Source: Pseudomonas oryzae (GTDB lineage: Bacteria > Pseudomonadota > Gammaproteobacteria > Pseudomonadales > Pseudomonadaceae). Taken from it: 64,000 nt of DNA. The translations under genes and the position numbers were made by a program. Under the pieces are notes generated by a model. The model made no database searches and was not told the DNA's origin. It was given only the letters and a program-made list of their open reading frames with translations. The stretch lies in NCBI RefSeq assembly GCF_900104805.1, contig NZ_LT629751.1, positions 930,001 to 994,000 of the forward strand, given 5' to 3'. This document shows positions 10,050 through 29,737 of the stretch, in pieces (within the stretch, counting starts at the first letter, position 1; every line of letters starts with the position of its first letter).

Positions 10050-10077
10050 GCGTCGCCGGAGGCCGGTGCCGCGCCGT

Positions 10078-11262
<1,185 letters not shown>

Positions 11263-11335
11263 GATGACCTGCGGGCAAGAGCATTGTGCGGACTGGGCGG
11301 GGATGCCGGCGAGCGCCGCGGCATGGCGCGGGCCA

Positions 11336-12649: not shown

Positions 12650-13087
12650 CTAATACCTGTCGCCGGCATTGCCGGGCGCAGTTGCACGGTATTTCTGCGC
12701 GGCAGTATTTCATCCCGAGTTGCAGTACGCAGTCGCCGGTCTTGCGCAAAGTCCCGTCGCAGACAGTCCGCCGCAGAGCGCAAGCGGTGCGCCGCACGCT
12801 GCGTTACTTGTCGCCGATCTGCCGCGGCGGGTGCGGATATTGGCGCGTCGACTGTCCGGCAATCGATGAGGATTTCCCTGTCGTTGATCCAGGCCAATTG
12901 CATGGCGTGCGGCAAAGCCGGGAATAGTCGCTGCCGAGACTGACTATTCGACGCTTGGTGCGTTCGGGCCTGCCGCCACAATGCTCGAAGGGCTGGCCTG
13001 CCTGCGACGGGGCGCTGGTCCCGTGTCCTGTTCCACGCCGCCCGGATGGCCAGGACGCACCGCTTGGACTGGCCCAGGGGCAGACGG
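12650..13087. other. Intergenic region upstream of fliA
   Basis: About 440 bp before the fliA start hold no ORF with family resemblance and no RNA gene that I can see. It presumably contains the fliA promoter, but no confident match was found. Confidence 0.5.
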
Positions 13088-13783
13088 ATGTACAACGCAC
13101 AAGGCAAGATCAGACAGCGTGACCTGTTCGACGAGCACCTGCCGCTGGTGCGCCGGCAGGCGCTCAACCTGCAGGTGCGCCTGCCGGCCAGCGTCGAGCT
13201 GGACGATCTGATCCAGGCCGGCATGATCGGCCTGCTCGACGCGGTGAATCGCTACGATGCCGGCCAGGGCGCCAGCTTCGCCACCTTCGCCAGCCAGCGC
13301 ATCCGCGGCGCGATGCTCGACGAGCTGCGCAGCCGCGACTGGGTGCCGCGCAGCGTGCGGCGCAACACGCGCATGCTCGACGAGACGATCCGTCGCCTCG
13401 AGCAGCAGCTCGGTCGCCCGGCCGAGGAGCGCGAGATCGCCGCCGCCCTCGAGGTCAGTCTCGAGGAGTTCCGTCACCTGCTGATGGATGCCAACGGCAG
13501 TCAGCTGGTCGCCCTCGACGAACTGCCGGAAGAGGAGGGCGACAGCCTCTGCGCGGGAACGCATGCCACGCCGCTGGCCGAACTGCTCGAAGGGCGTCGC
13601 CGCACCGATCTGGTCGCGGCCATCGAGCGCCTGCCCGAGCGCGAGAAACTGCTGCTCGGCCTGTATTACCAGGAAGATCTCAACCTCAAGGAAATCGGCG
13701 CGGTGCTCGGCGTCAGCGAGTCGCGGGTCTGCCAGCTGCACAGCCAGGCCGTGGCTCGCCTGCGCGCCGCGCTGGCGGACTGA
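13088..13783 (+). CDS. fliA: Flagellar sigma factor FliA (sigma-28)
   Basis: FliA directs RNA polymerase to late flagellar promoters. The 231-residue protein has region 2 (HLPLVRRQALNLQVRLP, ELDDLIQAGMIGLLDAVNRY, FATFASQRIRGAMLDELR, DWVPRSVRR), region 3 (EEREIAAALEV) and region 4 (LPEREKLLLGLYYQEDLNLK, LGVSESRVCQLHSQAVARLR). I chose the ATG at 13088, preceded by AGGGGC, over an upstream in-frame start at 13046 whose extra 14 residues look non-native. Several of its likely target promoters are in this window. The gene is separated from flhF and the FlhG-like gene by several regulator genes, unlike the usual flhF-fleN-fliA order. No anti-sigma factor FlgM is in view. Confidence 0.95.
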   Translation: MYNAQGKIRQRDLFDEHLPLVRRQALNLQVRLPASVELDDLIQAGMIGLLDAVNRYDAGQGASFATFASQRIRGAMLDELRSRDWVPRSVRRNTRMLDETIRRLEQQLGRPAEEREIAAALEVSLEEFRHLLMDANGSQLVALDELPEEEGDSLCAGTHATPLAELLEGRRRTDLVAAIERLPEREKLLLGLYYQEDLNLKEIGAVLGVSESRVCQLHSQAVARLRAALAD

Positions 13784-13795
13784 AAGGCGGGCGGC

Positions 13796-14908
13796 TCAGG
13801 CGAGCGCCGCCGTGAGCCGTTGCGCCTGCGCCGCCGTCTCGCCGAGCACGATGCCGCCACCCTGGCGCTTGGCGGCATACATCAGCTGGTCGGCGCAGTG
13901 GATCAGCTCCAGGGCGTCCAGCCAGTGTTCCGGGCCGTTCTGCACGATGCCGATGCTCAGGCGGGGCGCGTTGGCGCTGTCGGCCAGCCGCTGCAGCAGG
14001 CGCTCGGCGAACTGTCTGGCGCCCCGCTGGGTGCAGTCGGGCAGCAGCACGCAGAACTCGTCGCCGCCATAGCGGCAGCAGATGTCGTAGGTACGGCTTT
14101 CCTCGAGCAGGGCGGTACCGATGTTGCACAGCACCGCGTCGCCGGCCAGGTGGCCGGCACTGTCGTTGATCTGCTTGAAGTTGTCGACGTCGAGGTACAG
14201 CAGCGAGTGCGGCTTGCCCGCGCGTTGCGAGCGCTTCAGCTCGCATTTCAGGCAGTCCATGAGGAAGCGCTGGTTGTACAGGCCGGTCAGCGAATCCTGG
14301 CGGGACAGCTCCTCGAGTTCGCGGGTGCGCTCTGCGTTCTGCTCTTCCAGCGACAGCGCATAGCTCACCGCCTTGTTCTTGGCCGATTCCATTTCGGCCA
14401 GCAGGCTGCCGATGTAGGTATCGAATACCAGTTCATTGTCGAAGTACAGCAGCTTGTCCAGCGCCTGCCAGGTAGCATCGCGCTGCTGGCGGTCGTGCAG
14501 GTGCGCGTCGAGGGTATCCAGCAGCAGGCCCTTGAGCATCCGCATCGCCGATAGGTAGTACTTGGGTTCGACGCCGATGCGCTTGTGCACCAGGCCGATA
14601 CGCAGCCGGTCGTTGACATAGTCCTCGCCGTAATTGCCGGAGAACAGGTCGATGATATAGCGGACCATTGTCGCGCGCAGGCGGCTTAGCGTATCGACGT
14701 CACTGATGATGGCGGCAACCTCGTTGATGGAAGTCTGATGATCGTAGAACTGCTCCACCAGATCCTCGACCTTGTCGCTGATATACGGCTTGCAGGCCGC
14801 CAGCAGTTCCGCATCCTGGCGAGTGAAGCCCAGCAGCTCCTTGCGTCTGGTGATTTCCAGATCGTGGATGTGCATCTGTTCCGCCAGACTCTTCTGTGTC
14901 GGATTCAT
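13796..14908 (-). CDS. Globin-coupled diguanylate cyclase
   Basis: The N-terminal ~165 residues match the sensor-globin fold (LLGFTRQDAELLAACKPYI; proximal His108 in GLVHKRIGVEPKYYLSAM). A middle helical region (ALDKLLYFDNELVFDTYI) and a coiled linker lead to a GGDEF domain with an intact RYGGDEFCVLL active site. Family members such as DosC bind heme and change c-di-GMP synthesis with oxygen. Start ATG 14908 follows GAGGTAAG. A sigma-28 site at 14975-15001 lies just upstream, so this oxygen-sensing cyclase is probably made with the flagellum. It is convergent with fliA across a 12-bp gap. Heme binding is inferred from the fold. Confidence 0.88.
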   Translation of the reverse strand: MNPTQKSLAEQMHIHDLEITRRKELLGFTRQDAELLAACKPYISDKVEDLVEQFYDHQTSINEVAAIISDVDTLSRLRATMVRYIIDLFSGNYGEDYVNDRLRIGLVHKRIGVEPKYYLSAMRMLKGLLLDTLDAHLHDRQQRDATWQALDKLLYFDNELVFDTYIGSLLAEMESAKNKAVSYALSLEEQNAERTRELEELSRQDSLTGLYNQRFLMDCLKCELKRSQRAGKPHSLLYLDVDNFKQINDSAGHLAGDAVLCNIGTALLEESRTYDICCRYGGDEFCVLLPDCTQRGARQFAERLLQRLADSANAPRLSIGIVQNGPEHWLDALELIHCADQLMYAAKRQGGGIVLGETAAQAQRLTAALA

Positions 14909-14974
14909 GGACTTACCTCGGCTGGCCAGGGTCGGATGGGGGAGGGGAACAGCCCTCGCGGCAGGCCGCCCCTG

Positions 14975-15001
14975 TTATCGGCGGGCAGGGCGGCGGCTTG
15001 A
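14975..15001 (-). promoter_or_regulatory. Sigma-28 (FliA) promoter for globin-coupled cyclase
   Basis: On the minus strand: TCAAGCCG, 11 bp, GCCGATAA. The -10 element matches the consensus (TAAAGTTT-N11-GCCGATAA) perfectly and the -35 is a partial match. It ends 67 bp upstream of the start at 14908. Confidence 0.65.
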
Positions 15002-15014
15002 GGCACGGCGCGCT

Positions 15015-17126
15015 TCACGAGTCGACCCTGGCGACCAGCGGGCGTATGGGGATGGACGGTCGCCTGCTTTGCAGGTGTTCGGCGTACAGGCGGCGCAGCT
15101 CTTCCTCGCGCATCGGCTTGCCGATCAGGTAGCCCTGGATCTGGCTGATGCCGATCGCATCCAGATAGTCCTGCTGGCGCTGGGTCTCGACGCCCTCGGC
15201 GATGGTGGTCAGGCCCATGCTCTGCGCCATGACGGTGACCGCGCGGACGATCGCCCGGTCGCTGGGCGACTCGACGATGTCCTTGATGAAGGCGCGGTCG
15301 ATCTTGATCGCGTCCAGCGGGAAGCGCAGGACATACTCCAGCGAGGAGTAGCCGATGCCGAAGTCGTCGATGGCGATCTGGAAGCCGCGCTCGCGCCACT
15401 CGCGCAGTTGCTCGACTGTCCCCTGCGGGTCCTGCATGGCGGTGCTCTCGGTGATCTCCAGCTTGAGATCCGCCGGGCGGATGCCCGCCTCGGCCACCGC
15501 CTGCTCGAGCTTCGCCGACAGGTGGCTGTCCTGGAACTGGCGTGGCGACAGGTTGATGCTCATCTGCAGCTGGATGCCGCTGTCCTGCCAGCTGCGCAAC
15601 TGCTGGCAGGCGGTGCGCAGGATCCACTCGCCGAGCTGGTTGATCAGGCCCAGCTCCTCCATGATCGGGATGAAGCGCGGCGGTGCCACCGGGCCGAGTT
15701 CGGGATGGCTCCAGCGGATCAGCGCCTCGACGCCGACGATGCGGCTGTCGCTGAGGCGCATCTGTGGCTGGTAGACCAGATGGAACTGGGCGAAGTTGTC
15801 CTCCAGCGCCGCGCGCAGGGCGAACTCCAGCTTGAGCTCGATGGCTTTGTTGGCGCTGACCGGGCTGGCGATGGCCAGCGGCCGGCCCTGCTGGCGGGCG
15901 TGCTGGCGTGCGTCCTGGGCCGCCTGGATCATCTCCTCGGCGCTGCCGGCATGTTCGGGAAACAGGGCGATGCCGGCGGTCATCGAGACGAACAGGGTTT
16001 CCTCGCCGATGGTGATCGGCTGGCTGGCACGGCTGAGTACCGCCTCGGTCTTGGCGCGCACCCGGTCGAGGTCGTTGTGATGGACGAACAGGGCGAACTC
16101 GTCACTGTCCAGCCGGGCGATGCTGGTTTCCAGCGGCAACACCTGGCGCAGGCTGTTGGCGATGCGGCCGAGCAACTGGTCGCCGGCCTGCATGCCCAGT
16201 GCGTCGTTGATGCGGCTCAGGCGATTGAGGTCGAACAGCACCATGGCCACGCCGTGGCCCTGCTGACGGGCGCGCTCGATGGCCGACTCCAGCTGGCGCA
16301 GGAACAGCTTGCGGTTGGGCAGGCCGGTGAGGCTGTCGTGCAGGGCCATGTGCTGCACCATCTGCTCGGTTTCGCGCACGTGGGTCAGATCCTGGAAAGC
16401 GCCCTCGAACAGCTCGGGGTTGCCCGGCGAGGGGTGGTGGGCGGCCACCAGGTGGATCACCCGCACCGTGTCCTCCGGCGCCAGCAGGCGGATCTCCTGG
16501 TCTAGGCGGGTGCGCGCGCGGCGCGCCACCTGCAGGGCCAGGGTCAGGCGCTTGCGGTCATCCGGGTGGGTGTGGGCGAGCAGGGCCTCGAGGCTGCCGA
16601 GCCGCTCGGCGGCCAGCCCCGTCAGTTCCGCCAGATCCGCCGACCATTCGAGGCTGTCGTCTTCGGCATCCCAGGCCCAGAAGCCCATGCGGGCGATCTT
16701 CTGCGCGTACTCCTGGCGCAGGCGGATGCGCAGCAGCTCATGGCTGGTGCGTCGGGCGCGCAGCGCGTGGCGTACCCGGGCGATCAGCAGCGGCCAGCTG
16801 ATCGGCTTGCTGATGAAGTCGCTGGCGCCGGATTCGAAGGCCTGCTCGACATCCGCGCCGGCATCGGCGGCGGTGAGCATGATGATCGGGGTGCCCGGGT
16901 CCTGTTCGAGCTGGCGCAGGGCGCGGCAGGCCGCGTAGCCGTCGAGCCGCGGCATCATCACGTCCATCAGGACCAGGTCGGGATTTTCCCGCTGAAAGGC
17001 TTCGACGCCTTCCTGGCCGTCGGCGACTTCGAGAATGCGGTAGCCCTGGCGGGCGAGAACGGACCTGATCAGTCGGCGCGTCGAGCTGTCGTCGTCGACG
17101 ATCAGGATGGTTTCCACGCTGGTCAT
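15015..17126 (-). CDS. Receiver-PAS-GGDEF(degenerate)-EAL c-di-GMP phosphodiesterase
   Basis: The 703-residue protein starts with a receiver (ILIVDDDSSTRRLI; Asp in LVLMDVMMPRLDGY; Lys in FISKPI), then a PAS-like region (~170-280). The GGDEF domain has LDSDEF in place of GGDEF and is likely non-catalytic. A complete EAL domain follows (VGVEALIRWSHPE, LKLEITESTAM, AIDDFGIGYSSLEYV, KIDRAFIKDI), so the expected activity is hydrolysis of c-di-GMP. It lies 10 bp downstream of the Hpt gene in the same direction, and both probably share the sigma-28 promoter at 17641-17667. The Hpt protein is a natural phosphodonor candidate for its receiver (inference). Confidence 0.92.
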   Translation of the reverse strand: MTSVETILIVDDDSSTRRLIRSVLARQGYRILEVADGQEGVEAFQRENPDLVLMDVMMPRLDGYAACRALRQLEQDPGTPIIMLTAADAGADVEQAFESGASDFISKPISWPLLIARVRHALRARRTSHELLRIRLRQEYAQKIARMGFWAWDAEDDSLEWSADLAELTGLAAERLGSLEALLAHTHPDDRKRLTLALQVARRARTRLDQEIRLLAPEDTVRVIHLVAAHHPSPGNPELFEGAFQDLTHVRETEQMVQHMALHDSLTGLPNRKLFLRQLESAIERARQQGHGVAMVLFDLNRLSRINDALGMQAGDQLLGRIANSLRQVLPLETSIARLDSDEFALFVHHNDLDRVRAKTEAVLSRASQPITIGEETLFVSMTAGIALFPEHAGSAEEMIQAAQDARQHARQQGRPLAIASPVSANKAIELKLEFALRAALEDNFAQFHLVYQPQMRLSDSRIVGVEALIRWSHPELGPVAPPRFIPIMEELGLINQLGEWILRTACQQLRSWQDSGIQLQMSINLSPRQFQDSHLSAKLEQAVAEAGIRPADLKLEITESTAMQDPQGTVEQLREWRERGFQIAIDDFGIGYSSLEYVLRFPLDAIKIDRAFIKDIVESPSDRAIVRAVTVMAQSMGLTTIAEGVETQRQQDYLDAIGISQIQGYLIGKPMREEELRRLYAEHLQSRRPSIPIRPLVARVDS

Positions 17127-17136
17127 GCGTTGCTCG

Positions 17137-17559
17137 TCACTCCGTGCCGAGGGGGCGGGGGCAGAGGGGGGCGTCAGTGGAGGCTTGAGCCTGCCGCTGG
17201 TAGCGCTCGCCGAGGGCGCTGTGCGTGGCGGCAGCCAGCGCGCTGAGCGCGTCGGCCCGGCAAGCCGGGATCGCCCGCCGCTGGCGCGCCAGTTGCTCGA
17301 TTTCCTGCGCCAGGCTCGACAGCGCCAGGGCGCCCATGCTGCCGGCGCTGCCCTTCAGCCTGTGCGCCTGCTGCTGGATCGGCTCGTGATCGCCCGCGCG
17401 CAGGCTGTGCAGCAGGGTGTCGATCATGTCGGGCAGATTGCTGCAGAAAAAGGCGACCACATCCTGCAGATCCTCTCCCAGCACGGCTTCGAGGGTGCCG
17501 AGCAGCTCGGTGTCCAGCACCATCTGCCCGTTCGTGGGGGAATGCAGCTCTTGCGTCAT
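17137..17559 (-). CDS. Histidine phosphotransfer (Hpt) domain protein
   Basis: A single Hpt domain protein (~140 residues) with phosphoacceptor His in the HxxKG motif (QQQAHRLKGSAGSMGA), preceded by ELLGTLEAVLGEDLQDVVAF and followed by a helical tail. Such proteins relay phosphate from a hybrid kinase to a receiver. The downstream receiver-EAL gene and the hybrid kinase at 19.5 kb are plausible partners, though that pairing is inference. An in-frame GTG at 17637 is rejected as start because it sits at the predicted sigma-28 -10 element, so ATG 17559 is preferred; its Shine-Dalgarno is poor. Confidence 0.82.
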   Translation of the reverse strand: MTQELHSPTNGQMVLDTELLGTLEAVLGEDLQDVVAFFCSNLPDMIDTLLHSLRAGDHEPIQQQAHRLKGSAGSMGALALSSLAQEIEQLARQRRAIPACRADALSALAAATHSALGERYQRQAQASTDAPLCPRPLGTE

Positions 17560-17640
17560 GCTGGCGGGGGCCTGTTGCTCATCCGGGTGGCGCAGTGGCG
17601 AGTGCGCTGCTGCGGCCTGAAGTGTGACCTCTTTCACATG

Positions 17641-17667
17641 TTATCGGAAGCTCGCCGCCAAACTTGA
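17641..17667 (-). promoter_or_regulatory. Sigma-28 (FliA) promoter for Hpt / receiver-EAL operon
   Basis: On the minus strand: TCAAGTTT, 11 bp, TCCGATAA, differing from TAAAGTTT-N11-GCCGATAA at one -35 and one -10 base. Transcription would start near 17634, which excludes the GTG at 17637 as a translation start. Confidence 0.75.
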
Positions 17668-17702
17668 GGCGCACGGCAGGGGCGCGGCACCGGCTCGCTC
17701 GC

Positions 17703-17730
17703 TAAAGAAATCCGCCCGGTCGGCCGATAT
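17703..17730 (+). promoter_or_regulatory. Sigma-28 (FliA) promoter for PilZ/HD-GYP operon
   Basis: TAAAGAAA, then GCCGATAT with 16 bp between TAAA and GCCGATAT. Spacing and both elements fit the FliA consensus. It lies ~45 bp upstream of the start at 17776. Confidence 0.7.
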
Positions 17731-17775
17731 AGAGCAGCCAGGCGGTGTTGCGTGGTTGACCAGTAGAGGGATGTG

Positions 17776-19463
17776 ATGGAAGAGCAAATCGACACGCCCA
17801 CCCGGATCGAGCATCCCGGTGAGTGCCTGTCCCTGCTTGAGGGGCTCTGCCAGCCGGGCGGCGCCTCACTGCTGTTCGCGGCGCAGCCGGGACAGCCGCA
17901 TCCGGTGGTGCTGATGGAGCTGGTTCCGGAGGAGGGGCTGGTGATCGATATCAGCGCCGTACCGGAGCTGGCCGGGCGAATCGGTCGCGGGGATCCCTTC
18001 TATCTGTGCGGCCAGGTCGATGGCGCCATGCTGCGCACCCCCGGCCTCAGCGTGCTGGAACGCCGCGAGGTGGAGGGCCGGGTGCAGTATCTGTGCGCCT
18101 ATCCGCAGTGGCTGGAGCTGATGCACAGGCGCAGTTCCTATCGGGCCGAACTGCGCAGCGACATGCTGGTGCCGGTCGAGCTGCAGCTGCAGGAGGACGC
18201 GGGCAGCCTGCGCGGACGCCTGGTCAACCTGTCGCTGGGCGGCTGTCTGGTCGAGCTGCCGGCCAGGGAGGCGGTGCGTATCGAGGGGCCGCAGCTGCTC
18301 GATCGGCTGGTACTCAATTTCCCCGGCGGCCAGCGTCTCGAGCTGGCGGCGCGGATCTGTCACATGCACGGCGAACTGGACTGGCAGCACCTGCGCTTCG
18401 GTTGCCAGTTCCTCGGCGTGAGCGGCGACCAGGAGCGCCGCCTGTGGTTGTACGTGCGCGAGATCGAGCGGGAAAAGGCGCGCTCCAGCCATGCCGGCAG
18501 CCGGGCCTTGCAGCCCTCGGCGCTGTTCACCCGGCGCACGCCGGCGGCGCAGGCGCTGCTTGCCGCCAGCAATCCGCTGCCCGGCAGCAGCATCGGCCGC
18601 CGCCTGGGACGGGTGGCGGGCTACCTGGACACCCAGCTGATCAAGCTGCGCCTCGGCGCGGCCGTCGACTCCAGGCAGCTGTCGCGCCACGCCGACCTGC
18701 TGCTCGATCTGCTGGCCACCGATCGTGATGCCCTGCTGTTCGCCGTGCAGCATCAGCCGGACGAACCGCTGCTGGTGCAGCACGGCATCGCCCTGGCGGT
18801 GCGCATGGCGGACATGGCCCAGGCGCGCAATCTGCCGCGTCAGGCGATCAAGACGATAGTCGCCGCGGCCCTGGTGCATGACCTGGGCAAGGCCCTGCTG
18901 TCGGCCGATCTGCGTCAGGCCAGACACCTGGATGCCGGCCAGCGCCAGGCCTTCGGTAGTCACGTCGGCCTGCTGCGCGAGCGCCTGGAGAGCTGCAAGT
19001 GGCTGGCCGGGCCGGTGCTGGATGCCGTGGTCGGCTCGATCAACGAGCGTCTGGATGGCAGCGGCTACCCGCAGGCGATGCCGGGCGAACGGCTGGGCGA
19101 GCTGGCGCGCATGGCCACGGTGATCGATGTGATCGACGCCATGAGCCGCCCGCGTGCCGACCGTGCGCCGCTGCCGATCGACGCCATCTATCGCCACCTG
19201 CAGACCAGTAGCGCTCAGCTCGATCCGCAGTGGAGCCAGCGCTACATGCGCCACTTCGGCCTGATCCCGATCGGCAGCCTGGTGCGCTTCGCCAGCGGCC
19301 AATTGGCCTGGGTGCGCCGTCTGGACGGCGACGGGCGGGTGGCCCAGGTGCAGCTGACGGCCAGCCCGGTCTTCACGCCCCAGCTGAGCGGGCCGTTGCT
19401 CAGCGATGCCGAGCTGTCAGGACTGGGGCAGATCGAGAACCCCATGGTGCCGGAGCTTGAGTG

Positions 19464-19464
<1 letters not shown>
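17776..19464 (+). CDS. PilZ / HD-GYP protein with incomplete metal ligands
   Basis: The 562-residue protein has a YcgR-like N-terminal region (~1-120), a PilZ domain (c-di-GMP-binding RRSSYRAELR around residues 119-128 and VNLSLGG), and a C-terminal HD-GYP domain (VHDLGKALL, RLDGSGYPQAMPGERL, ATVIDVIDAMS). The usual HHE before DGxGYP is replaced by INE, so two metal-ligand histidines are missing and phosphodiesterase activity is doubtful. It may bind c-di-GMP and act as a brake or scaffold. Start ATG 17776 follows AGAGGG; a GTG one codon earlier is possible. First gene of a three-gene operon with 1-bp and 4-bp overlaps; sigma-28 promoter upstream. Confidence 0.85.
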
Positions 19465-21457
<1,993 letters not shown>

Positions 21458-21461
<4 letters not shown>

Positions 21462-22480
21462 CCAGCGACACCGCCGAACGACGCCAGACACTCCTTCTTG
21501 TCGATGACGAGCCGAGCAACCTGCAGGTGCTGCGGCACATCCTGCAGGACAGCTACCGCCTGCTGTTCGCCCGCGACGGCGACAAGGCCATCGAACTGGC
21601 CTGTCGCGAGCAGCCCGACCTGATCCTGCTCGACGTGATGATGCCGGGCATGACCGGCTACCAGGTGTGCCGGGTGCTCAAGCGCGAGCCGGCGACCCGG
21701 GGCATCCCGGTGATCTTCATCACCGCCCTGACCGATACCGACGACGAGGCCGAGGGCTTCGAGGCCGGTGCGGTGGACTACATCACCAAGCCGGTCAGCC
21801 CGCTGATCGTCAAGGCGCGGATCCGCACCCACCTGTCGCTGGTGCGGGTCGACGAGCTGCGCGAGACCCGCCTGCAGATCGTCCAGCGCCTGGGCATGGC
21901 CGCCGAGTACAAGGACAACGAGACCGGCCTGCACGTGATCCGCATGAGCCACTATTCGCGCCTGCTGGCGCTGGCCGCCGGCCTCGGCGAGGACGAGGCG
22001 GAGGACCTGCTGCACGCTGCGCCCATGCACGACGTGGGCAAGATCGGCATCCCCGATGCCATCCTGCGCAAACCCGGCAAGCTGGATGCGGACGAGTGGC
22101 GGGTGATGCGCGAGCACGCGCGCATCGGCGCGAAGATCATCGGCGAACACCCTGGCGGCCTGCTGAAGATGGCGCACAACATCGCCCTCTGCCACCACGA
22201 GAAGTGGGACGGCAGCGGCTATCCCCACGGCCTGCGCGGCGAGGCGATTCCGCTGGAAGCGCGCATCGTGGCGATCGCCGACGTGTTCGACGCCCTGACC
22301 AGCGAGCGCCCGTACAAGCAGGCGTGGAGCGTGGAGGAGGCGGTCGCGCTGATCCGCAGCGAGGCCGGCCGCCACTTCGAGCCGCGGCTGGTGCAGCTGT
22401 TCATCGACAGCTGCCTGCCGCAGGTGCTGGAGGTCAGGGAGTTGTGGAAGGAGCGCGAGGTCAGCTGCGCATCAGCCTGA
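21458..22480 (+). CDS. Receiver-HD-GYP c-di-GMP phosphodiesterase (RpfG-like)
   Basis: The 340-residue protein has a receiver (TLLLVDDEPSNLQVL; Asp in LILLDVMMPGMTGY; Lys in YITKPVSPL) and a complete HD-GYP domain: MHDVGKIGIPDAIL, a second His region VMREHARIGAKII, CHHEKWDGSGYPHGL and ADVFDALTSERPYK. All metal ligands appear present, so c-di-GMP hydrolysis is expected. The ATG overlaps the kinase stop (ATGA), which makes the hybrid kinase the likely phosphodonor. Its 3' end overlaps the convergent gene at 22461 by 20 bp. Confidence 0.93.
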
Positions 22481-22970
22481 GCATCTCCGCCTCGGCCTTC
22501 CACAGCTTGTCGAACAGCGTGGCGGCGGCTTTGCTGGCGGTCGGCGGCACCTCGCTGGTGATCTTGAAGCGGTGCTCGCGGGTCAGGCCGATGGCTTCGC
22601 CGAGCAGCGCCATCACCTCCAGCGGCAGCACCGCGCCATGGCGGGCCAGGTATTCGCCGAGGGCCGTGTCGATCTTGGCGAAGTCGTAGGCGATCTCGTT
22701 GCACGCCGCCTCCCACTCCATGGCCGGGAAGTGGAAGGTCGGCAGGAACTGGCGCAGCAGCGCCACCAGCGCCGAGGTGGCCTCGAATTCCTTGTCCAGC
22801 AGCAGCGCGGCCTTGCGTGCCTGCAGTTCCAGTCCACGGTCCTGCTCGCGGCGCACCCGTTCGGCCCAGCGCCGGCCGATCCAGCCGGCGAGCGACAGGG
22901 TCAGCAGGCTGCCGGCGGCGAGGGCGGCGAACAGGACGATGGCAATTTCCGTGGTGGGGCGCAGTTCCAT
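22461..22970 (-). CDS. Unknown protein with one N-terminal membrane segment
   Basis: I do not recognise this 169-residue protein. Residues ~7-30 are hydrophobic (IAIVLFAALAAGSLLTLSLA), followed by a basic stretch (RRWAERVRREQDR) and a cytoplasmic helical domain with repeated heptad-like Leu spacing. It is convergent with the RpfG-like gene and upstream of the flaG-fliC block in the same direction as them. Its codon and base use match the neighbours. No catalytic motif is seen. Confidence 0.7.
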   Translation of the reverse strand: MELRPTTEIAIVLFAALAAGSLLTLSLAGWIGRRWAERVRREQDRGLELQARKAALLLDKEFEATSALVALLRQFLPTFHFPAMEWEAACNEIAYDFAKIDTALGEYLARHGAVLPLEVMALLGEAIGLTREHRFKITSEVPPTASKAAATLFDKLWKAEAEMLRLMRS

Positions 22971-23137
22971 GGCAAGGCTCGAACGAGAAATGGGGCAGGG
23001 GCCGCAGGCCGGAGGCAGGGCGTCAAACAGTTATCGTCAGAACCGTGGCGGAACTTTAGGACGGGGCTGATCGATGCTGCCCTCGGTTACCCAATGGAGC
23101 CACATTTCTTACAGTCGCCAGGTCGGATATGGCCAGC

Positions 23138-23199
23138 GTAGGGTGCGCCATGCGCACCGCTTCGGCTTTGGGCTCCATGGTGCGCATGGCGAACCCTAC
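23138..23199. repeat. GTAGGGTGCGC palindromic repeat pair
   Basis: Arms GTAGGGTGCGCCATGCGCACC and its imperfect complement face each other over a ~25-bp spacer. This is the same family as the tandem array at 48.0-48.7 kb. It lies directly downstream of flaG. Confidence 0.75.
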
Positions 23200-23222
23200 T
23201 CAGGAATCATTACCGACGCTGA

Positions 23223-23591
23223 TCAGGCCTTTTCCTGGAGAAGCAGGCCGATCCGGTTCTCCATGCGCTGCGCCATGCGCAGAACCTCCTCGCTGGGAAT
23301 CTGGCGGATCAGCTCGCCGCTCTCGCGATCCACCACCCGGGTGACCAGATGATTGCCGGGCTCGCTGAACTCGAACTCGATACCGAAACTCTGCAGTCCG
23401 GCGTTCAGTTGCTGCAGGCTGGCCGCCAGCTGCGCGGCGCCCCCCTGGGTGGGCTCCCTGGTCGAGGGCTCGTTGCGTGGTTCGCTGGCGATGACACTCG
23501 GCGACTCGCTGGGGGGAGATACAGACAGCGCGGCCTGCTCGGTGGGAAAGGGAAACAGCTGGATGACGTCGAGAGAGGGCGGTGTTGTCAT
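23223..23591 (-). CDS. flaG: Flagellar protein FlaG
   Basis: The 122-residue product ends in the typical FlaG domain (FEFSEPGNHLVTRVVDRESG, ELIRQIPSEEVLRMAQRM). The N-terminal half is a variable Pro/Ser/Glu-rich stretch. FlaG proteins influence filament length and are usually encoded between fliC and fliD. Here flaG is downstream of fliC in the same direction, but fliD and fliS do not follow. A ribosome binding site (GGAG) precedes ATG 23591, and a sigma-28 site lies at 23646-23673. The gene is bracketed by two GTAGGGTGCGC palindromes. Confidence 0.9.
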   Translation of the reverse strand: MTTPPSLDVIQLFPFPTEQAALSVSPPSESPSVIASEPRNEPSTREPTQGGAAQLAASLQQLNAGLQSFGIEFEFSEPGNHLVTRVVDRESGELIRQIPSEEVLRMAQRMENRIGLLLQEKA

Positions 23592-23645
23592 GGTGGCTCC
23601 ACTCCGAGCGGCGCTGGGCGCGTTTTGAAAGGGGATTTTCGTCTT

Positions 23646-23673
23646 CTATCGGCAGGCGGGTGGGGGATCTTGA
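23646..23673 (-). promoter_or_regulatory. Sigma-28 (FliA) promoter for flaG
   Basis: On the minus strand: TCAAGATC, then GCCGATAG with 16 bp between TCAA and GCCGATAG. The -10 differs from consensus only at the last base. It lies ~55 bp upstream of the flaG start. Confidence 0.6.
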
Positions 23674-23702
23674 GGGCGAAAGACCTTGGGTGATGTCATG
23701 TT

Positions 23703-23763
23703 TAGGGTGCGCCGTGCGCACCAGTCCAGGCATTCTGTCAGCGGTGCGCATGGCGCACCCTAC
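23703..23763. repeat. GTAGGGTGCGC palindromic repeat pair
   Basis: TAGGGTGCGCCGTGCGCACC and an inverted copy ending GGCGCACCCTA lie between flaG and fliC; same family as at 23138 and at 48 kb. Confidence 0.75.
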
Positions 23764-23785
23764 GGGAGTCTGTGTTCGTGGCTGT

Positions 23786-23816
23786 AAAACGAACAGGGCG
23801 CCCGAAGGCGCCCTGT
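23786..23816 (-). terminator. Rho-independent terminator of fliC
   Basis: On the minus strand: 10-bp stem ACAGGGCGCC / GGCGCCCTGT with a TTCG tetraloop, then TTCGTTTTAC. A second 13-bp hairpin (GCCGAGGTGCGCG arms, 23829-23864) precedes it right after the fliC stop, so the message end is doubly structured. Confidence 0.85.
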
Positions 23817-23871
23817 AGTGGTGCTGGAGCCGAGGTGCGCGCTTTCCTGGTCGCGCACCTCGGCGAGCCGC

Positions 23872-25617
23872 TTAGCGCAGCAGGGACAGCACGCCCTGCG
23901 GCAGCTGGTTGGCCTGGGCCAGCACCGAGGTACCGGCCTGCTGGAGGATCTGCGCACGGGTCATGTTGCCCACTTCCACGGCGTAGTCGGCGTCCTGGAT
24001 GCGCGAACGAGCGGCGGTGATGTTGGTCTCGTTGGTGCTCAGGTTGGTGATCGCCGACTCGAAGCGGTTCTGCACGGCACCGAGGTCGGAGCGCAGGGAG
24101 TCGATCTGCTTCAGGGCGGCGTCGATGGTTTTCAGCGGGTTCTCGGTCTTGGTGCCCTTGGTGGTTTCGGCAGTGGTCAGCTTGCCGTCCTGACCGACAA
24201 AGTACTGGACGCCATCAGTGTCGGTGACCTTGCCATTGTCGCGCACATGCAGGGTGGTGTCGGTGGTCGCTGCGGTGGTGAGAGCACCGTTGGCGTCGGC
24301 ACGGACGGTGTTGCCACCGGACTTCACGGTGGTGGTGCCGCCGTTGCTGCTGATGGTGACTGTCTGAGCGGCAACGCCGCCAACTGTAGTTTGGAAAGAG
24401 AGATCCTGGGCGGTGTTGGCTTCGGCGGCAGCCAGCAGCTCGCTGCGGCTGATCTTGGCGCCGGCCACGTTGACCCCGGCGTTATTGGTACCGGTCAGGG
24501 TGCTGCCATCATCCAGGGTGATCTTGGCAGTGGAGATGTCGGTAGTGCTGACGTCAAAGCCGTTGCCATCAATGTCCGAGGCATCAGTAGCCATAGCATT
24601 GGTCAGGCGCCCAACAGTGGCTTCAACGTAGTCGGTACCAGCAGTGCCCGAGGTGGTTGCGGTCAGGTTGCCGGAGCTGTCGATGAACAGCGCCTTGCCG
24701 TCTTTGCTGGTGATGTCACCGGTATTGGTGATCAGCACGTCCATGGCAGTGCCGCCGATCTCGATCTTGGCCGAGCGGGGAGCTTCACCGGCTTTCGGGG
24801 TCAGGGCAGCGGCGGCATTGGTTTCGGTCACGCCAGTAGCGCCGTAGGTGAAGGAGTCCTTGGCGCTGTCATAGGTGTAGGTGCCGCCAGTTGCAGCAGT
24901 ACCGTAGGCGTTGTTGGTGCCGTTGAAAGTTGCAGTGCCAGCGTTGGCCAGCTTGCCCAAGGCGTCGGCTGCGCTGACAGCGGTATTGTCAGTCTTCAGG
25001 GTGTACTGCTTGTCGGCAACGGCTTCAGTGACATTGCTGGCCAGCTTGAGGTCGGACAGGGAGGCGGCCTTGTTGGCGATTTCGGCCTTGCCGTCAACGT
25101 TGAAGCCCTTCAGGTTCAGGGTTTCGGCATTGATTTCCTTCAGGTTGATCTTGATGGTCTGGCCATCCTGAGCGCCAACCTGGATGCTCAGCTCCTTATC
25201 GCCAGCCAGCACATTCACGCCGTTGAAGCTGGTTTCCTTGGAGATGCGGTTGATCTCTTCCAGGCGCTGACCGATCTCGTTCTGGATCGAGGTCAGGTCG
25301 TCGCCGGAGTTGGTGCCGTTGGAAGCTTGCACGCTCAGCTCGCGAATGCGCTGCAGGTTGTCGTTGACCTGGTTCAGCGCGCCTTCGGCGGTCTGGGCGA
25401 CGGAGATGCCGTCGTTGGCGTTGCGCTGGGCCTGGGCCAGACCCTTGACCTGGGCGGTCATGCGGTTGGTGATGGCCTGGCCGGCGGCATCGTCCTTGGC
25501 GCTGTTGATGCGCAGGCCGGAGGACAGGCGCTCCATGGCGGTGGTCAGGGCGCTCTTGGAGCTGGTCAGGTTCTTCTGTGCGATCACAGAAGTGATGTTG
25601 GTGTTGATCACGGACAT
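23872..25617 (-). CDS. fliC: Flagellin FliC
   Basis: Filament subunit of 581 residues. Conserved D0/D1 ends are clear: MSVINTNITSVIAQKNLTSS, LSSGLRINSAKDDAAGQAI and NRMTAQVKGLAQAQRNANDG at the N-terminus, and SRIQDADYAVEVGNMTRAQI and QLPQGVLSLLR at the C-terminus. The central ~300 residues are a variable Thr/Ala/Gly-rich D2/D3 region and are AT-richer than the surroundings, as is common in flagellin genes. The MSVINTN start resembles peritrichous/lateral flagellins more than the MALTVNTN of typical polar Pseudomonas flagellins. Start ATG 25617 follows AAGGAGT; upstream in-frame codons lie beyond the sigma-28 promoter and are not used. Confidence 0.96.
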   Translation of the reverse strand: MSVINTNITSVIAQKNLTSSKSALTTAMERLSSGLRINSAKDDAAGQAITNRMTAQVKGLAQAQRNANDGISVAQTAEGALNQVNDNLQRIRELSVQASNGTNSGDDLTSIQNEIGQRLEEINRISKETSFNGVNVLAGDKELSIQVGAQDGQTIKINLKEINAETLNLKGFNVDGKAEIANKAASLSDLKLASNVTEAVADKQYTLKTDNTAVSAADALGKLANAGTATFNGTNNAYGTAATGGTYTYDSAKDSFTYGATGVTETNAAAALTPKAGEAPRSAKIEIGGTAMDVLITNTGDITSKDGKALFIDSSGNLTATTSGTAGTDYVEATVGRLTNAMATDASDIDGNGFDVSTTDISTAKITLDDGSTLTGTNNAGVNVAGAKISRSELLAAAEANTAQDLSFQTTVGGVAAQTVTISSNGGTTTVKSGGNTVRADANGALTTAATTDTTLHVRDNGKVTDTDGVQYFVGQDGKLTTAETTKGTKTENPLKTIDAALKQIDSLRSDLGAVQNRFESAITNLSTNETNITAARSRIQDADYAVEVGNMTRAQILQQAGTSVLAQANQLPQGVLSLLR

Positions 25618-25703
25618 GGAGTGACTCCTTGCTGTTTCAAGTTGGTGCCAGTGGCGAGCTGTGCTGCGCCTGGCGACAACGGCGCCGTTGGCCGTTACCT
25701 CAG

Positions 25704-25730
25704 ATATCGACGGGCTGCGGGGAAGCTTTA
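25704..25730 (-). promoter_or_regulatory. Sigma-28 (FliA) promoter of fliC
   Basis: On the minus strand: TAAAGCTT, 11 bp, GTCGATAT. The -35 differs from TAAAGTTT by one base and the -10 by two from GCCGATAA. It gives a ~80-nt leader before ATG 25617. Confidence 0.75.
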
Positions 25731-25845
25731 GGGCTGGCAGCGATTTTTTGTGAATGGATCGGCACTTTTTGATCTGTCTCAATCCTGTGGCGTCGTGCCG
25801 GCTGTCTAGCCGGCGGTGCGGGGACTGAGGTGGCGCCGGTCTGTT

Positions 25846-27603
25846 TCAGGCAATCGCCTGCTGCTCCCGCCCCGCACAGAACTCCACGAACTGCTCCACC
25901 TTCAGCGGCGCCGAATACCAGTAGCCCTGGGCCAGTTCGCAGCCCATGTCCCGGAGCATTTCCGCCTGTTCCGGTTTCTCCACGCCTTCGGCGACGGTGA
26001 TGCAGCCGAAGTTGCGCGCCATGTCGATCACGGTTTCGGCCAGGCGGCTGTCCTGGGGTTCGGTGTCCATGTTGCTGACGAAGGCGCGGTCGATCTTCAG
26101 CACCGAGACCGGCAGGGTCTTCAGGTAGGCCAGCGAGGAGTGGCCGGTGCCGAAGTCGTCGATGGCCACCGGTACGCTGTGGCGGGACAGCAGGCGCAGC
26201 TGGTCGCGGGCCAGTTCGACGTTCTGCATCAGGCCCGATTCGGTGACCTCGACTTCCAGCGCGCCGGCCGGCAGGCGGCTGCGCAGCAGGCGGTTGAGCA
26301 GGTTGCGGGCGAAGTCCGGGCGGGTCAGTTGCTGTACCGAGACGTTGACCGCCAGGCGGAAGTTCGGTGCCACCTGGCGGGTGGCCAGCCATTCCTCGAG
26401 CTGGCGGATTGCGCGCTCGATCACCCATTCGCCGATGCGCAGGATCTCGCCGCTGTCTTCGGCCATGGGAATGAAGTCGGCCGGCGAGACGAAGCCCAGG
26501 GTCGGGTGTACCCAGCGCAGCAGGGCCTCGGCGCCGATGACCCGGCCGCTGGCCAGTTCGATCTTGGGCTGGTAGACGAGGAAGAATTCCTGGTTGTCCA
26601 GGGCGGCGCGCAGGGCCTCGTGCAGGCGCGTGCGTTTCTGCAGGTCGTCCTCGATGCTCGAGTGGTACAGGCGCCACTCCGCGCTGGTGTCCGGCAGGGC
26701 GAGCGCCGCCAGGCGCAGCAGGTGGTCGGCCGACTCGTGCGGCATTTCGGTGTGGCTGATGCCGATGCGCGCGTCGAGGCGGACCTGCACCTGGTCGATG
26801 CCGAAGGGCTGGGTGATGCAGTGCAGCAGGCTGCGGGCCTGCTCGTCGAGGCGGTCGGCGAGCATCGGCTGCTGGGCGATGACCAGCCACTTGTTGGTGT
26901 TCCACACGCCCACGGTGGCCTGCGGCGCGAAGCGTTCGAGCAGGCGGTCGCGCAGGCGCAGGCTGAGAGTCTCGCTGGTGGCGTAGCCGTGCAGGCGGGC
27001 GATGTCGTCCATGCCTTCCAGGGCGATGAAGTACAGCGCCGCCGGCGCCTTGTCCTGCAGGCTGGCTTCGAGCTGGGCGAGCAGGGCGCGGCGGTTGGGC
27101 AAGCCGGTGACCGGGTCTTCGCGGGACAGACGGGCGATGGCGGCGGTGCGTTCTTCCACCAGGTTCTGCAGGAGGATGGCGCGGTCGTTACGCTCCTTGA
27201 GCAGGAAGTGCACCTCGAGGGAGTTGCGGATGCGCTGCATGACTTCCTGCTGGTCGAACGGCTTGGTGAGGAAGTCCCGCGCGCCGAGATCGAGGGCCTG
27301 CATGCGGGTGTCGCGGCTGGTCTGTGCGGTGAGCACGATCACCGGCGGCGCCTGGTCGCCCCAGCGGGTCTTCAGCCAGGCGAGGATGTCGTGGCCGCTG
27401 AGGTGCGGCATGTTGATGTCGAGCAGGATCAGGTCGGGCAACTGCTCCTCGAGCATCGGCTCGACCCAGCGCGGGTCGTTGATGCCCTGGCTGTTGGTGT
27501 AGCCGTAGTGCTCGAGCAGGGCCAGCAGCAGCTTGACGTTCACCGAGCTGTCGTCGACCACCAGGATATAGGCGTCCCTGTGGAGCGGGGCGGTTGACTG
27601 CAT
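25846..27603 (-). CDS. Receiver-GGDEF(degenerate)-EAL phosphodiesterase
   Basis: The 585-residue protein has a receiver (YILVVDDSSVNVKLL; Asp in LILLDINMPHLSGH; Lys in FLTKPFDQQE), a coiled linker and a GGDEF-fold domain whose active site reads NTNKW, so it has lost cyclase function. An intact EAL domain follows (GAEALLRWVHP, LEVEVTESGLM, AIDDFGTGHSSLAYL, LKIDRAFV). It should degrade c-di-GMP when its receiver is phosphorylated. Start ATG 27603 has a strong AGGAGG five bases upstream, which rules out a start 22 codons earlier. The promoter at 27685-27711 has a perfect sigma-28 -35 element. It lies between fliC and motAB and is divergent from motAB. Confidence 0.93.
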   Translation of the reverse strand: MQSTAPLHRDAYILVVDDSSVNVKLLLALLEHYGYTNSQGINDPRWVEPMLEEQLPDLILLDINMPHLSGHDILAWLKTRWGDQAPPVIVLTAQTSRDTRMQALDLGARDFLTKPFDQQEVMQRIRNSLEVHFLLKERNDRAILLQNLVEERTAAIARLSREDPVTGLPNRRALLAQLEASLQDKAPAALYFIALEGMDDIARLHGYATSETLSLRLRDRLLERFAPQATVGVWNTNKWLVIAQQPMLADRLDEQARSLLHCITQPFGIDQVQVRLDARIGISHTEMPHESADHLLRLAALALPDTSAEWRLYHSSIEDDLQKRTRLHEALRAALDNQEFFLVYQPKIELASGRVIGAEALLRWVHPTLGFVSPADFIPMAEDSGEILRIGEWVIERAIRQLEEWLATRQVAPNFRLAVNVSVQQLTRPDFARNLLNRLLRSRLPAGALEVEVTESGLMQNVELARDQLRLLSRHSVPVAIDDFGTGHSSLAYLKTLPVSVLKIDRAFVSNMDTEPQDSRLAETVIDMARNFGCITVAEGVEKPEQAEMLRDMGCELAQGYWYSAPLKVEQFVEFCAGREQQAIA

Positions 27604-27684
27604 CGGTCCTCCTGGCGGGCGATGGGGCGTGCGGCGGGAAAAGGGGGGGGCTGTCGGGAGCCGGCGCAAGGCTGTTCCGCAACG

Positions 27685-27711
27685 CTATCGGCAGGGGCGG
27701 CGAAAACTTTA
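27685..27711 (-). promoter_or_regulatory. Near-perfect sigma-28 (FliA) promoter for receiver-EAL gene
   Basis: On the minus strand: TAAAGTTT, 11 bp, GCCGATAG. This equals the consensus except for the last -10 base, the best such site in the window, ~82 bp before ATG 27603. Confidence 0.85.
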
Positions 27712-27890
27712 TGAAAATATGACATTTTTTGGACGTCCGACTGTTGACGCGCGTCGAGGCGCGATCCGCCCGGCGGGCGCGGTGCAGCTGGTGGTCCGCC
27801 GGCGACACCCGTTCCGGGCTCAACCATTCTCCAGGCCAGTCCGTGGCGTGCCGGGCCATCTTCCGCAGCGGGCAATTTCGCATCACGGCT

Positions 27891-27917
27891 TCAGAAGTGC
27901 GCCGCCGCTGCCGATAG
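27891..27917 (+). promoter_or_regulatory. Candidate sigma-28 promoter for motAB
   Basis: GCCGATAG at 27910-27917 matches the -10 element well and lies 63 bp before the motA start. The -35 position (TCAGAAGT, 11 bp upstream) matches poorly, so confidence is limited. Confidence 0.4.
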
Positions 27918-27979
27918 ATGGGCAAGGGCACGTCCGGGTGGCGTGTCGTCTTGTCCATCGGTCCGCACATGGAGTCTGC

Positions 27980-28789
27980 ATGAATCCCTCCACGCTAATC
28001 GGCATCCTTTCCAGCGTCGCGCTGCTGGCGGTGGTGCTGATGTTTTCCGCCGAGGATCCGGCCCTCTTCCTCGACCTGCCCAGCCTGGGCATCGTGCTGG
28101 TGGGCACCATGGCGGCCACCTTCATCAGCTACCCGCTGGGCGAGGTGCTGCGGGTGTTCGGCCTGTTCGCCACGGTGATGCGCAACGAGAAGCTGTACAC
28201 CCGCGACGACATGGAGGAGCTGGTGAACATCTCGCGGCTGTGGATGTCCGGCAACCTGCGCCAGATCGAGGAGGCGCTGCAGCACGTGCGCAATCCCTTC
28301 CTGCGCACCGGCGTCCAGCTGGTGGTCGACAACACGCCCGAGGAGGACATCATCGAGCTGCTGCAGTGGCGCATCTCGCGCCTGCGCGCGCGCGAGCATG
28401 CCGAGGCGCAGCTGTTCCGGGTGATGGCCAGCTTCGCGCCGGCGTTCGGCATGGTCGGCACCCTGGTGGGCCTGGTCAACCTGATGTTCCTGCTCGGCGA
28501 CGGCGACATGACCGCCATCGGTCGGCAGATGGCGATCGCGCTGATCACCACCTTCTACGGCGTACTGCTGGCCAACCTGGTGTTCAAGCCGGTGGCGGTG
28601 AAGCTGGAGCGGCGCACCGAGCAGCGCGTGGTGGTGATGAACATGGTGGTGCAGGGCATCTCGATGATGTGCAACAAGCGCAGCCCGGGGCTGATGCGCG
28701 AGACGCTGAAGTCGTTCATGGCCCAGTACCAGGACGAGATCAACGACGGCGGCGCCGGGGCGCGCAGCGCCGATGGCCGCCGAGCCTGA
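27980..28789 (+). CDS. motA: Flagellar stator protein MotA
   Basis: MotA with MotB forms the proton-driven stator of the flagellar motor. The 269-residue protein has four hydrophobic segments (~4-22, 34-52, 150-172, 183-203). It has the charged cytoplasmic loop that touches FliG, and a conserved Pro154 in ASFAPAFGMVGTLVGLVNL. The layout (MNPSTLIGI start, compact loop) resembles PomA/MotC-type stators rather than the longer E. coli-type MotA. Start ATG 27980 follows GGAG; longer upstream frames are not supported. motB begins 13 bp after the stop. Confidence 0.94.
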   Translation: MNPSTLIGILSSVALLAVVLMFSAEDPALFLDLPSLGIVLVGTMAATFISYPLGEVLRVFGLFATVMRNEKLYTRDDMEELVNISRLWMSGNLRQIEEALQHVRNPFLRTGVQLVVDNTPEEDIIELLQWRISRLRAREHAEAQLFRVMASFAPAFGMVGTLVGLVNLMFLLGDGDMTAIGRQMAIALITTFYGVLLANLVFKPVAVKLERRTEQRVVVMNMVVQGISMMCNKRSPGLMRETLKSFMAQYQDEINDGGAGARSADGRRA

Positions 28790-28802
28790 GGAGCGCCGAG
28801 CG

Positions 28803-29633
28803 ATGAGCGAACAGGCGACCGAGGGCACCGAGAACGGTGCCGGCAGCACGACGGCGATCCCCGCCAAGCAGGCGCTGCTGATGCGCCAGCGCGAGCTGGA
28901 GGCCGAGCTGGCCCATGCGCGGCAGGTGGCCGGGCGGGCCAGACGCAAGACGGGCGGCGACGAGGTGTTGGCCACCGAGCCGGAGGAGGAGAGCTGGCTG
29001 CTCACCTACCTGGACATGATGACCCTGATGCTGGTGCTGCTGGTGGTCATGCTGGCCTTCGCCGGCAAGGGCGCGCTGGACGGGCTGCGCCAGGCGTCCA
29101 GCCACCTGCGGCCGGCCCACGAGGGGGTGCTGCCGGCCAGCGACGGCCTGCTGCCGGAGACGGCCCTGCAGGTGCCGTCGCCCCTGCCGTCCAAGGCGCC
29201 GGTCGATCCGCTCAAGGGCCTGCCGCTGGACCAGCTCGGCGACGACATCGACGTGGTGGTCAACGAGAGCACGGTGAGCTTCCGCATCAGCAGCGAGATC
29301 CTGTTCAGCTCCGGCCAGGCCGATCTCAGCCTGGCCGGTCTGGCGGTGCTCAAGCGCCTGGTGCCGGTGCTCAACAGCAGCGACCACCGCATCGCGGTGG
29401 AAGGGCACACCGACTCGGTGCCGGTGCGCAGTGGCCGCTATCCGTCCAACTGGGAGCTGTCCGGTTCGCGGGCGGGCGGGGTGGTGCGCTATCTGGAGGC
29501 CAACGGCGTGGCCAGCGAGCGCCTGCGCGCGGTGGGCTATGCCGACACCCGGCCGCTGGGCGACAACGCTACAGCCGAGGGTCGGGCGAGCAACCGGCGC
29601 GTCGAGCTGATCATGGAGGCGCCTGGTTCATGA
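28803..29633 (+). CDS. motB: Flagellar stator protein MotB
   Basis: The 276-residue protein has a single membrane helix at ~65-88 with the proton-carrying Asp71 (WLLTYLDMMTLMLVLLVVM) and a C-terminal OmpA-like peptidoglycan-binding domain (SSEILFSSGQADLS, VEGHTDSVPVRSGRYPSNWE, RASNRRVELIM). The cytoplasmic segment before the helix is ~64 residues, about twice the usual length, and rich in Ala, Gly and Glu. Start ATG 28803 follows GAGGAGC; an in-frame start at 28773 inside motA is less likely. The stop lies within a perfect 13-bp inverted repeat. The pore residues suggest H+ rather than Na+ coupling, but this is not certain from sequence. Confidence 0.94.
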   Translation: MSEQATEGTENGAGSTTAIPAKQALLMRQRELEAELAHARQVAGRARRKTGGDEVLATEPEEESWLLTYLDMMTLMLVLLVVMLAFAGKGALDGLRQASSHLRPAHEGVLPASDGLLPETALQVPSPLPSKAPVDPLKGLPLDQLGDDIDVVVNESTVSFRISSEILFSSGQADLSLAGLAVLKRLVPVLNSSDHRIAVEGHTDSVPVRSGRYPSNWELSGSRAGGVVRYLEANGVASERLRAVGYADTRPLGDNATAEGRASNRRVELIMEAPGS

Positions 29634-29721: not shown

Positions 29722-29737
29722 TGGCATGGATCTTGCT
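29722..29737 (+). promoter_or_regulatory. Sigma-54 (RpoN) promoter for chemoreceptor
   Basis: TGGCATG-GATC-TTGCT fits the -24/-12 consensus TGGCACG-N4-TTGCW, with exactly 10 bp between GG and GC. Transcription would start near 29748, and the gene begins at 29775 after AAGGAAG. Confidence 0.75.

Follow-up and report, generated by a model that had tools for sequence, protein, structure and literature searches.

The DNA analysed here is a stretch of 64,000 nucleotides from Pseudomonas oryzae (contig NZ_LT629751.1, positions 930,001 to 994,000 of the forward strand), hereafter called the window, and its coordinates are counted from its first letter. Next to the gene of the flagellar sigma factor FliA (sigma28), genes of the flagellar filament and motor lie together with genes for predicted cyclic diguanosine monophosphate (c-di-GMP) enzymes, a phosphorelay and a putative flagellar brake, and FliA-type sites stand ahead of both groups. 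Judging from the sequence, we consider it likely that the locus is the class-IV (FliA/sigma28) end of the flagellar system with a built-in c-di-GMP control module. The predicted sites make FliA control of the c-di-GMP gene group well supported. The less expected part, and the one deserving a specialist's second look, is the brake, which is fused to an HD-GYP domain.

The fliA gene (13046-13783, + strand), which a first-pass annotation of the same DNA had placed near these sites, matched TIGR02479 (E 3e-81) and the Pfam models of sigma70 regions 2, 3, and 4. Its open reading frame (ORF) is the only one in the genome above the FliA model cut-off, and it adjoins the gene of a globin-coupled cyclase. 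The literal consensus quoted in the first-pass annotation had no matches: the strict TAAA-N15/16-GCCGATAA pattern was absent from the window, and the strict TAAAGTTT-N11-GCCGATAA pattern from the whole genome. For this reason, we used a weight matrix, made by hand from what we take to be the sigma28 consensus and not trained on this genome. Seven sites in the window scored at least 20 bits (range 20.2-25.0), all within 14975-27711, while the next best reached 14.0; the matched sites have the looser form T(A/C)AAG...(N)CCGATA, with a spacer of 11 or 12. All the seven sites quoted in the first-pass annotation were found at their positions and strands. Six of them score at least 20 bits, the remaining one, ahead of motAB, scores 12.6, and one strong site (23031, - strand, 22.4 bits) had been missed.

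The first-pass annotation had also expected an enrichment over shuffled sequence, and this is what the matrix found. In twenty windows simulated with a Markov-1 model, the mean number of sites of at least 16 bits was 0.1 and the maximum was 1. The genome background (360 kb in 18 of the 20 sampled stretches of 20 kb, L053 and L068 being excluded as chosen near a flagellar region or a known match) contained two sites of at least 16 bits and none of at least 20. Among the regions upstream of 199 background ORFs, the top score was 11.9, and thus none reached 12 bits.

Pattern searches over the whole genome pointed to the same region. The spacer-11 pattern had nine exact matches, eight of which fell within 884-958 kb, an interval running from the flagellar genes ahead of the window into the window itself (930-994 kb). 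Only these nine were retained; at the one-mismatch level, the pattern was uninformative as a whole, with 43 matches against 47 in the reversed control. The spacer-12 pattern had seven exact matches against one in the reversed control: two are window sites, one is intergenic, and four, which we took as chance, lie inside ORFs of at least 150 amino acids. The intergenic match (20.4 bits, spacer 12) stands about 170 bases 5' of a lone EAL-domain gene (genome positions 1107057-1108093, L072), far from the flagellar region, which is possibly a further FliA-linked phosphodiesterase gene.

As positive controls, matrix sites were found ahead of flgM (884250), flgK (892470), fliD (906831), a second motA (911901), a methyl-accepting chemotaxis protein (MCP) gene (916569), and cheB (924186), all neighboring genes at 884-924 kb of the genome. 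Most of these are expected members of the class-IV flagellar regulon. The matrix therefore works here, and the local group belongs to the normal FliA regulon. The earlier description of a regulon made largely of c-di-GMP genes was too narrow: these sites predict an ordinary class-IV regulon, of which the c-di-GMP genes form one arm.

Four c-di-GMP units carry sigma28 sites. The first is the gene of the globin-coupled diguanylate cyclase (13796-14908, - strand; Protoglobin and GGDEF domains in Pfam, GGDEF motif present), preceded by TCAAGCCG-N11-GCCGATAA (14975-15001, - strand, 21.4 bits). The second, on the same strand, encodes an Hpt phosphotransfer protein (17137-17559; Pfam Hpt on ORF 17137-17637) and, 10 bases after it, a REC-PAS-GGDEF-EAL protein (15015-17126), and its site TCAAGTTT-N11-TCCGATAA (17641-17667) reaches 25.0 bits. 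We placed the Hpt start at the ATG at 17559, since the longer frame, opening with a GTG at 17637, would begin only 4 bases past the -10 element, ahead of the expected transcript start. The third unit, on the + strand, follows TAAAGAAA-N12-GCCGATAT (17703-17730, 22.4 bits) and consists of three genes overlapping end to start: the PilZ-HD gene of the brake fusion (17776-19464), a hybrid histidine kinase gene (19461-21461; PAS-HisKA-HATPase-REC in Pfam), and a REC-HD-GYP gene (21458-22480; Pfam on ORF 21176-22480). The last unit is a REC-GGDEF-EAL gene (25846-27603, - strand; Pfam on ORF 25846-27669) with the site TAAAGTTT-N11-GCCGATAG (27685-27711, - strand, 25.0 bits).

By domains and motifs, the FliA-linked set thus comprises one predicted cyclase and three predicted phosphodiesterases. 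Inspected by eye, both EAL proteins have the EAL and DDFG motifs and degenerate GGDEF domains, and in the REC-HD-GYP protein, the HD, HH, and GYP motifs and the receiver domain are all present. Three of the 30 GGDEF matches of the genome are in genes with these sites. Moreover, a hybrid kinase, an Hpt protein, and receivers, which form the component set of a multistep phosphorelay, are all encoded together according to Pfam.

The filament and motor genes are interleaved with these units. On the - strand are fliC (23872-25617; Pfam flagellin on ORF 23872-25782), with the site TAAAGCTT-N11-GTCGATAT (25704-25730, - strand, 21.4 bits), and flaG (23223-23591; Pfam FlaG), with TCAAGATC-N12-GCCGATAG (23646-23673, - strand, 20.2 bits). 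The strong site absent from the first-pass annotation, TAAAGTTC-N12-GACGATAA (23031-23058), precedes a gene for a 169-amino-acid protein (22461-22970, - strand) with a hydrophobic N-terminal stretch and no Pfam or NCBIfam match, possibly an unrecognized flagellar protein. Of the cluster proteins compared with G025 and G061, this one is the most conserved, at 95% identity. On the + strand, the weak site TCAGAAGT-N11-GCCGATAG (27891-27917) stands ahead of motA (27980-28789) and motB (28773-29633), both assigned by Pfam, with NCBIfam matches below the curated cut-offs.

Then, we evaluated the conservation of the sites. Of 298 genomes searched in the family, 54 had some match and 10, including the window genome, had a near full-length PilZ-HD; Pseudomonas sagittaria, now placed in Geopseudomonas, and Pseudomonas sp. 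A-1 are among the relatives. We examined ten stretches from the nine other PilZ-HD genomes, and site counts refer to the loci where tblastn found the gene. The PilZ-HD site is present in 6/6 congeneric orthologs, 42-76 bases 5' of the start. Sites are likewise kept ahead of the 169-amino-acid gene in 5/5 relatives and ahead of flaG at 6/6 loci. The low-scoring motAB site, which the first-pass annotation had listed with a "perhaps", is rescued by its conservation and thus sound, since TTCAGAAA followed by GCCGATAG stands ahead of motA in all the five relatives where motA was found, one of them from genus g17. The whole module is not in every relative: the kinase and REC-HD-GYP genes follow PilZ-HD in G025, G061, and G077, and of the relatives examined, just G025 and G061 yielded the Hpt-EAL genes and the globin cyclase. 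In G077, the slot between fliA and PilZ-HD is taken by a different GGEEF cyclase (L043 4853-6205), in which two PAS-like repeats were recognized by eye and whose gene is likewise preceded by a sigma28 site. G025 apparently has two tandem flagellin genes (L039 12913-15760), against one in the window, and the second has a sigma28 site of its own.

The association extends beyond the family. Among 390 genomes of the order, 36 had a match at E ≤1e-30, and in 22 of them (window included), the fusion was full length or nearly so; the other 14 matches covered the HD part only. The 21 other full-length fusions belong to families f36 (14), f43 (5), and f40 (2). At ten other-family loci, taken from these 21 genomes, a sigma28 site of at least 15 bits was found within about 160 bases 5' of the fusion in eight cases (L161-L168), and fliC lies beside the fusion in five (L163, L166-L169).

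Several observations weigh against a FliA-driven module. In g17 genomes, PilZ-HD follows fliA and a sigma28 site was found in 0/3, so FliA control is not universal; no such site was found either at the second PilZ-HD copy of G050 (L042), at one of the six fliC loci (L045), or at two of the ten other-family loci (L160 and L169). The -10 element of the REC-GGDEF-EAL gene is changed to GCCGTTAT in 4/4 relatives. Both relatives having the globin-cyclase gene show a degraded site (conserved 0/2), and the cyclase, one of the firm cases in the first-pass annotation, is the weakest member of the set because of this. In the flanking DNA, no gene could be clearly assigned to a strong-looking site (910852, 17.7 bits). 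In addition, the kinase and the Hpt protein could serve other partners, and deletion of fliA in Pseudomonas putida was reported without a clear change in bulk c-di-GMP (PMC5300878).

The degraded globin-cyclase site and the altered -10 element would fit an explanation in which only the long-conserved set (fliC, flaG, motAB, the 169-amino-acid gene, and FlgZ-HD) is truly under FliA, and the cyclase and EAL sites are partly fortuitous or weak. We hold this to be unlikely. Indeed, the Hpt-EAL site has one of the two 25.0-bit scores and is kept in 2/2 relatives carrying the gene, and the -35 stretch TAAAGTTTTCGC of the REC-GGDEF-EAL gene is identical in 5/5 sequences. Moreover, as no background upstream region reached 12 bits, it is very improbable that chance placed several sites in a single locus.

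A second explanation concerns the timing of the brake: most FlgZ-HD transcripts could arise from a sigma54 promoter or as readthrough of the fliA operon, in which case the gene would be on before the hook is complete and the FliA site would be a supplement. In g17, G085, G050, and G069, fliA and PilZ-HD share a strand, with PilZ-HD second and no more than a few hundred bases away, and the g17 genomes lack the site; in P. putida, sigma54-driven readthrough into flgZ has been published (PMC6093933). In the window, a one-mismatch sigma54 match (17282, + strand) lies inside the Hpt gene, about 480 bases 5' of PilZ-HD, the sole one upstream of a c-di-GMP unit. Even so, we find this explanation rather improbable, as the opposite-strand globin cyclase, EAL, and Hpt genes between fliA and PilZ-HD make fliA readthrough unlikely in the window, and the PilZ-HD FliA site is retained in 6/6 congeners with the gene. 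In general, the sigma54-like pattern had 7 matches in the window against a mean of 14.9 in shuffles, and a strict sigma70 scan of 13700-28200 gave no sites. Another one-mismatch sigma54 match, TGGCATGGATCTTGCT (29722-29737, + strand), stands directly 5' of an MCP gene at 29775.

The first-pass annotation had assigned the PilZ/HD-GYP operon to FliA. The site stood; the reading of the PilZ-HD product as one more phosphodiesterase was dropped after a table of metal ligands had been compiled. A profile of 11 PilZ-HD proteins matched PP4397 (FlgZ, PDB 2gjg) at E 2.3e-16 over profile positions 19-236, and the alignment spans residues 23-242 of 248 of that structure; the YcgR match was weaker. Coherently, a hidden Markov model built from 13 stand-alone FlgZ proteins gave the 11 fusions scores of 46-69 bits and did not match any of the other PilZ ORFs supplied, whereas Pfam alone marks only PilZ in the brake part. 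The window protein keeps the c-di-GMP-binding motifs RxxxR and (D/N)xSxxG, the former being found in 20/21 homologs. It therefore reads as a FlgZ/YcgR-type brake, with a YcgR-like N-terminal part and PilZ, fused to HD-GYP.

The HD-GYP part of the window fusion retains HD and lacks the HH pair, the other metal-ligand motif looked for in an HD-GYP phosphodiesterase. In the alignment, the HH metal-ligand pair is present in 0/21 fusions and in 20/20 comparators, these having been chosen for a GYP-type motif. At that position, 18 of the 21 fusions read [I/V/L/A]NERLDGSGYP; the exceptions are L042, which retains a single H, and G600 and G584, which are further degraded. It is quite unlikely that the domain works as an enzyme through a changed set of metal ligands, which would make the protein a brake destroying its own ligand: the first H, HD, third H, final D, and DGSGYP are retained in 18/21 homologs, but the HH pair is missing from every fusion. 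The L042 protein (10037-11674) is a second, diverged FlgZ-HD copy of G050, with 45% identity and an altered GYP motif.

The fusion seems, from these comparisons, to stand in for a separate FlgZ. We scanned PilZ proteins in 24 picked genomes, judging FlgZ-like entries by frame length and match. Each of the 13 sampled Pseudomonadaceae outside the two fusion genera has one such entry, whereas no separate FlgZ was found in the 10 fusion genomes, where the entries nearest in length (G050 and G077) were inspected and are not FlgZ. G009, from the same genus, has neither the fusion nor a FliA above the model cut-off, which suggests that the whole flagellar system has been lost. The flgMN-flgZ gene order was not found in the window genome, where flgM-flgN is followed by an MCP gene. 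In the titles and abstract openings of the open-licence literature, we found no description of a PilZ-HD-GYP flagellar brake among the matches listed. Tentatively, FlgZ-HD may represent an unrecognized class of flagellar brake, conserved in several families of the order, whose HD-GYP domain now serves as a non-catalytic module for sensing or docking. It would form a local motor circuit for c-di-GMP with the phosphorelay-controlled phosphodiesterase of the same FliA operon, and additional c-di-GMP enzymes under FliA would be drawn into the slot that separates fliA from the brake gene; we regard this wider proposal as possible, somewhat short of an even chance.

The relationships of the flagellar proteins of the genus were compared as well. 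FliA of the genus shares 66-72% identity with f36, against 48-56% with 13 other Pseudomonadaceae, and FlhA of the window shares 79-81% with three f36 genomes, against 55-57% with five Pseudomonadaceae. In the FliA tree, 13 rows are separated from 17 with 100/100 support, and in the best tree, the 20 Pseudomonadaceae rows make up one side of a branch with weak support (62/25). We considered whether the genus acquired its flagellar system horizontally; these data show neither a transfer nor its direction, and the FliA tree is compatible with transfer and with retention alike. The FlhF ORF of the window (6761-9127, + strand) has 788 amino acids, against frames of 441-454 in five typical Pseudomonadaceae.

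In this bacterial family, completion of the hook lets FlgM exit the cell, which frees FliA. If the locus is a class-IV end with a c-di-GMP module, the freed FliA would transcribe, together with the filament and motor genes, the FlgZ-HD brake, the hybrid kinase, the Hpt protein, two receiver-EAL enzymes, and one receiver-HD-GYP enzyme, and, in this species at least, the sequence predicts the globin cyclase as a further target. The kinase would probably hand its phosphate via Hpt to the receiver enzymes, as domains and co-regulation indicate. Since the module enzymes are predicted mostly to degrade c-di-GMP, the expected net effect would be a low level during swimming; the brake, already present, would then engage once the phosphorelay or the haem-sensing cyclase permits c-di-GMP to rise. 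The first-pass annotation proposed that c-di-GMP is set only once the hook is complete, a timing that would require FliA to be the sole promoter of these genes.

The principle of FliA control over c-di-GMP genes has already been published, for bifA and flgZ, and the local form is richer. FliA drives the c-di-GMP phosphodiesterase gene bifA in P. putida (PMC5300878), and, as here, a sigma28 promoter ahead of a phosphodiesterase gene gives a feedback that would favor swimming; the feedback idea for BifA is in print (PMC5026340). In the bifA case, as reported, one gene is partly under FliA (PMC5300878), whereas the present cluster next to fliA comprises several enzymes together with a kinase, an Hpt protein, and a receptor. 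The gene flgZ is described as being under FliA and sigma54 (PMC6093933; PMC3913639). The window brake shares with FlgZ/PP4397 and YcgR the YcgR-like N-terminus and PilZ, the RxxxR and (D/N)xSxxG motifs, the flagellar regulon, and a FliA-type promoter (PMC3913639; PMC6093933); it differs from them in its fusion to an HH-less HD-GYP domain and in its place after fliA (near fliC in other families) and not after flgMN.

A link among phosphorelay, c-di-GMP, and FliA is also reported for the HptB-HsbR-HsbA-HsbD pathway of Pseudomonas aeruginosa, where an Hpt protein and a cyclase are joined to flagellar genes (PMC5085249). That pathway, as described, works by HsbA-FlgM partner switching, whereas the window cluster holds receiver-EAL and receiver-HD-GYP enzymes (PMC5085249). 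In Legionella, the GGDEF/EAL gene lpp0952 is a FliA target, and it is a single gene in the regulon listed there, unlike the group in the window (PMC5655016).

The locus makes testable, in one place, the proposal that c-di-GMP control is tied to the completion of the flagellum through a sigma factor shared by enzymes, phosphorelay, and brake. The FlgZ-HD fusion can be regarded as a natural experiment, in which one protein would combine the action of a motor brake with that of a phosphodiesterase-like domain. It would do so in the place of the standard FlgZ, which is said to be conserved in all sequenced pseudomonads (PMC3913639).

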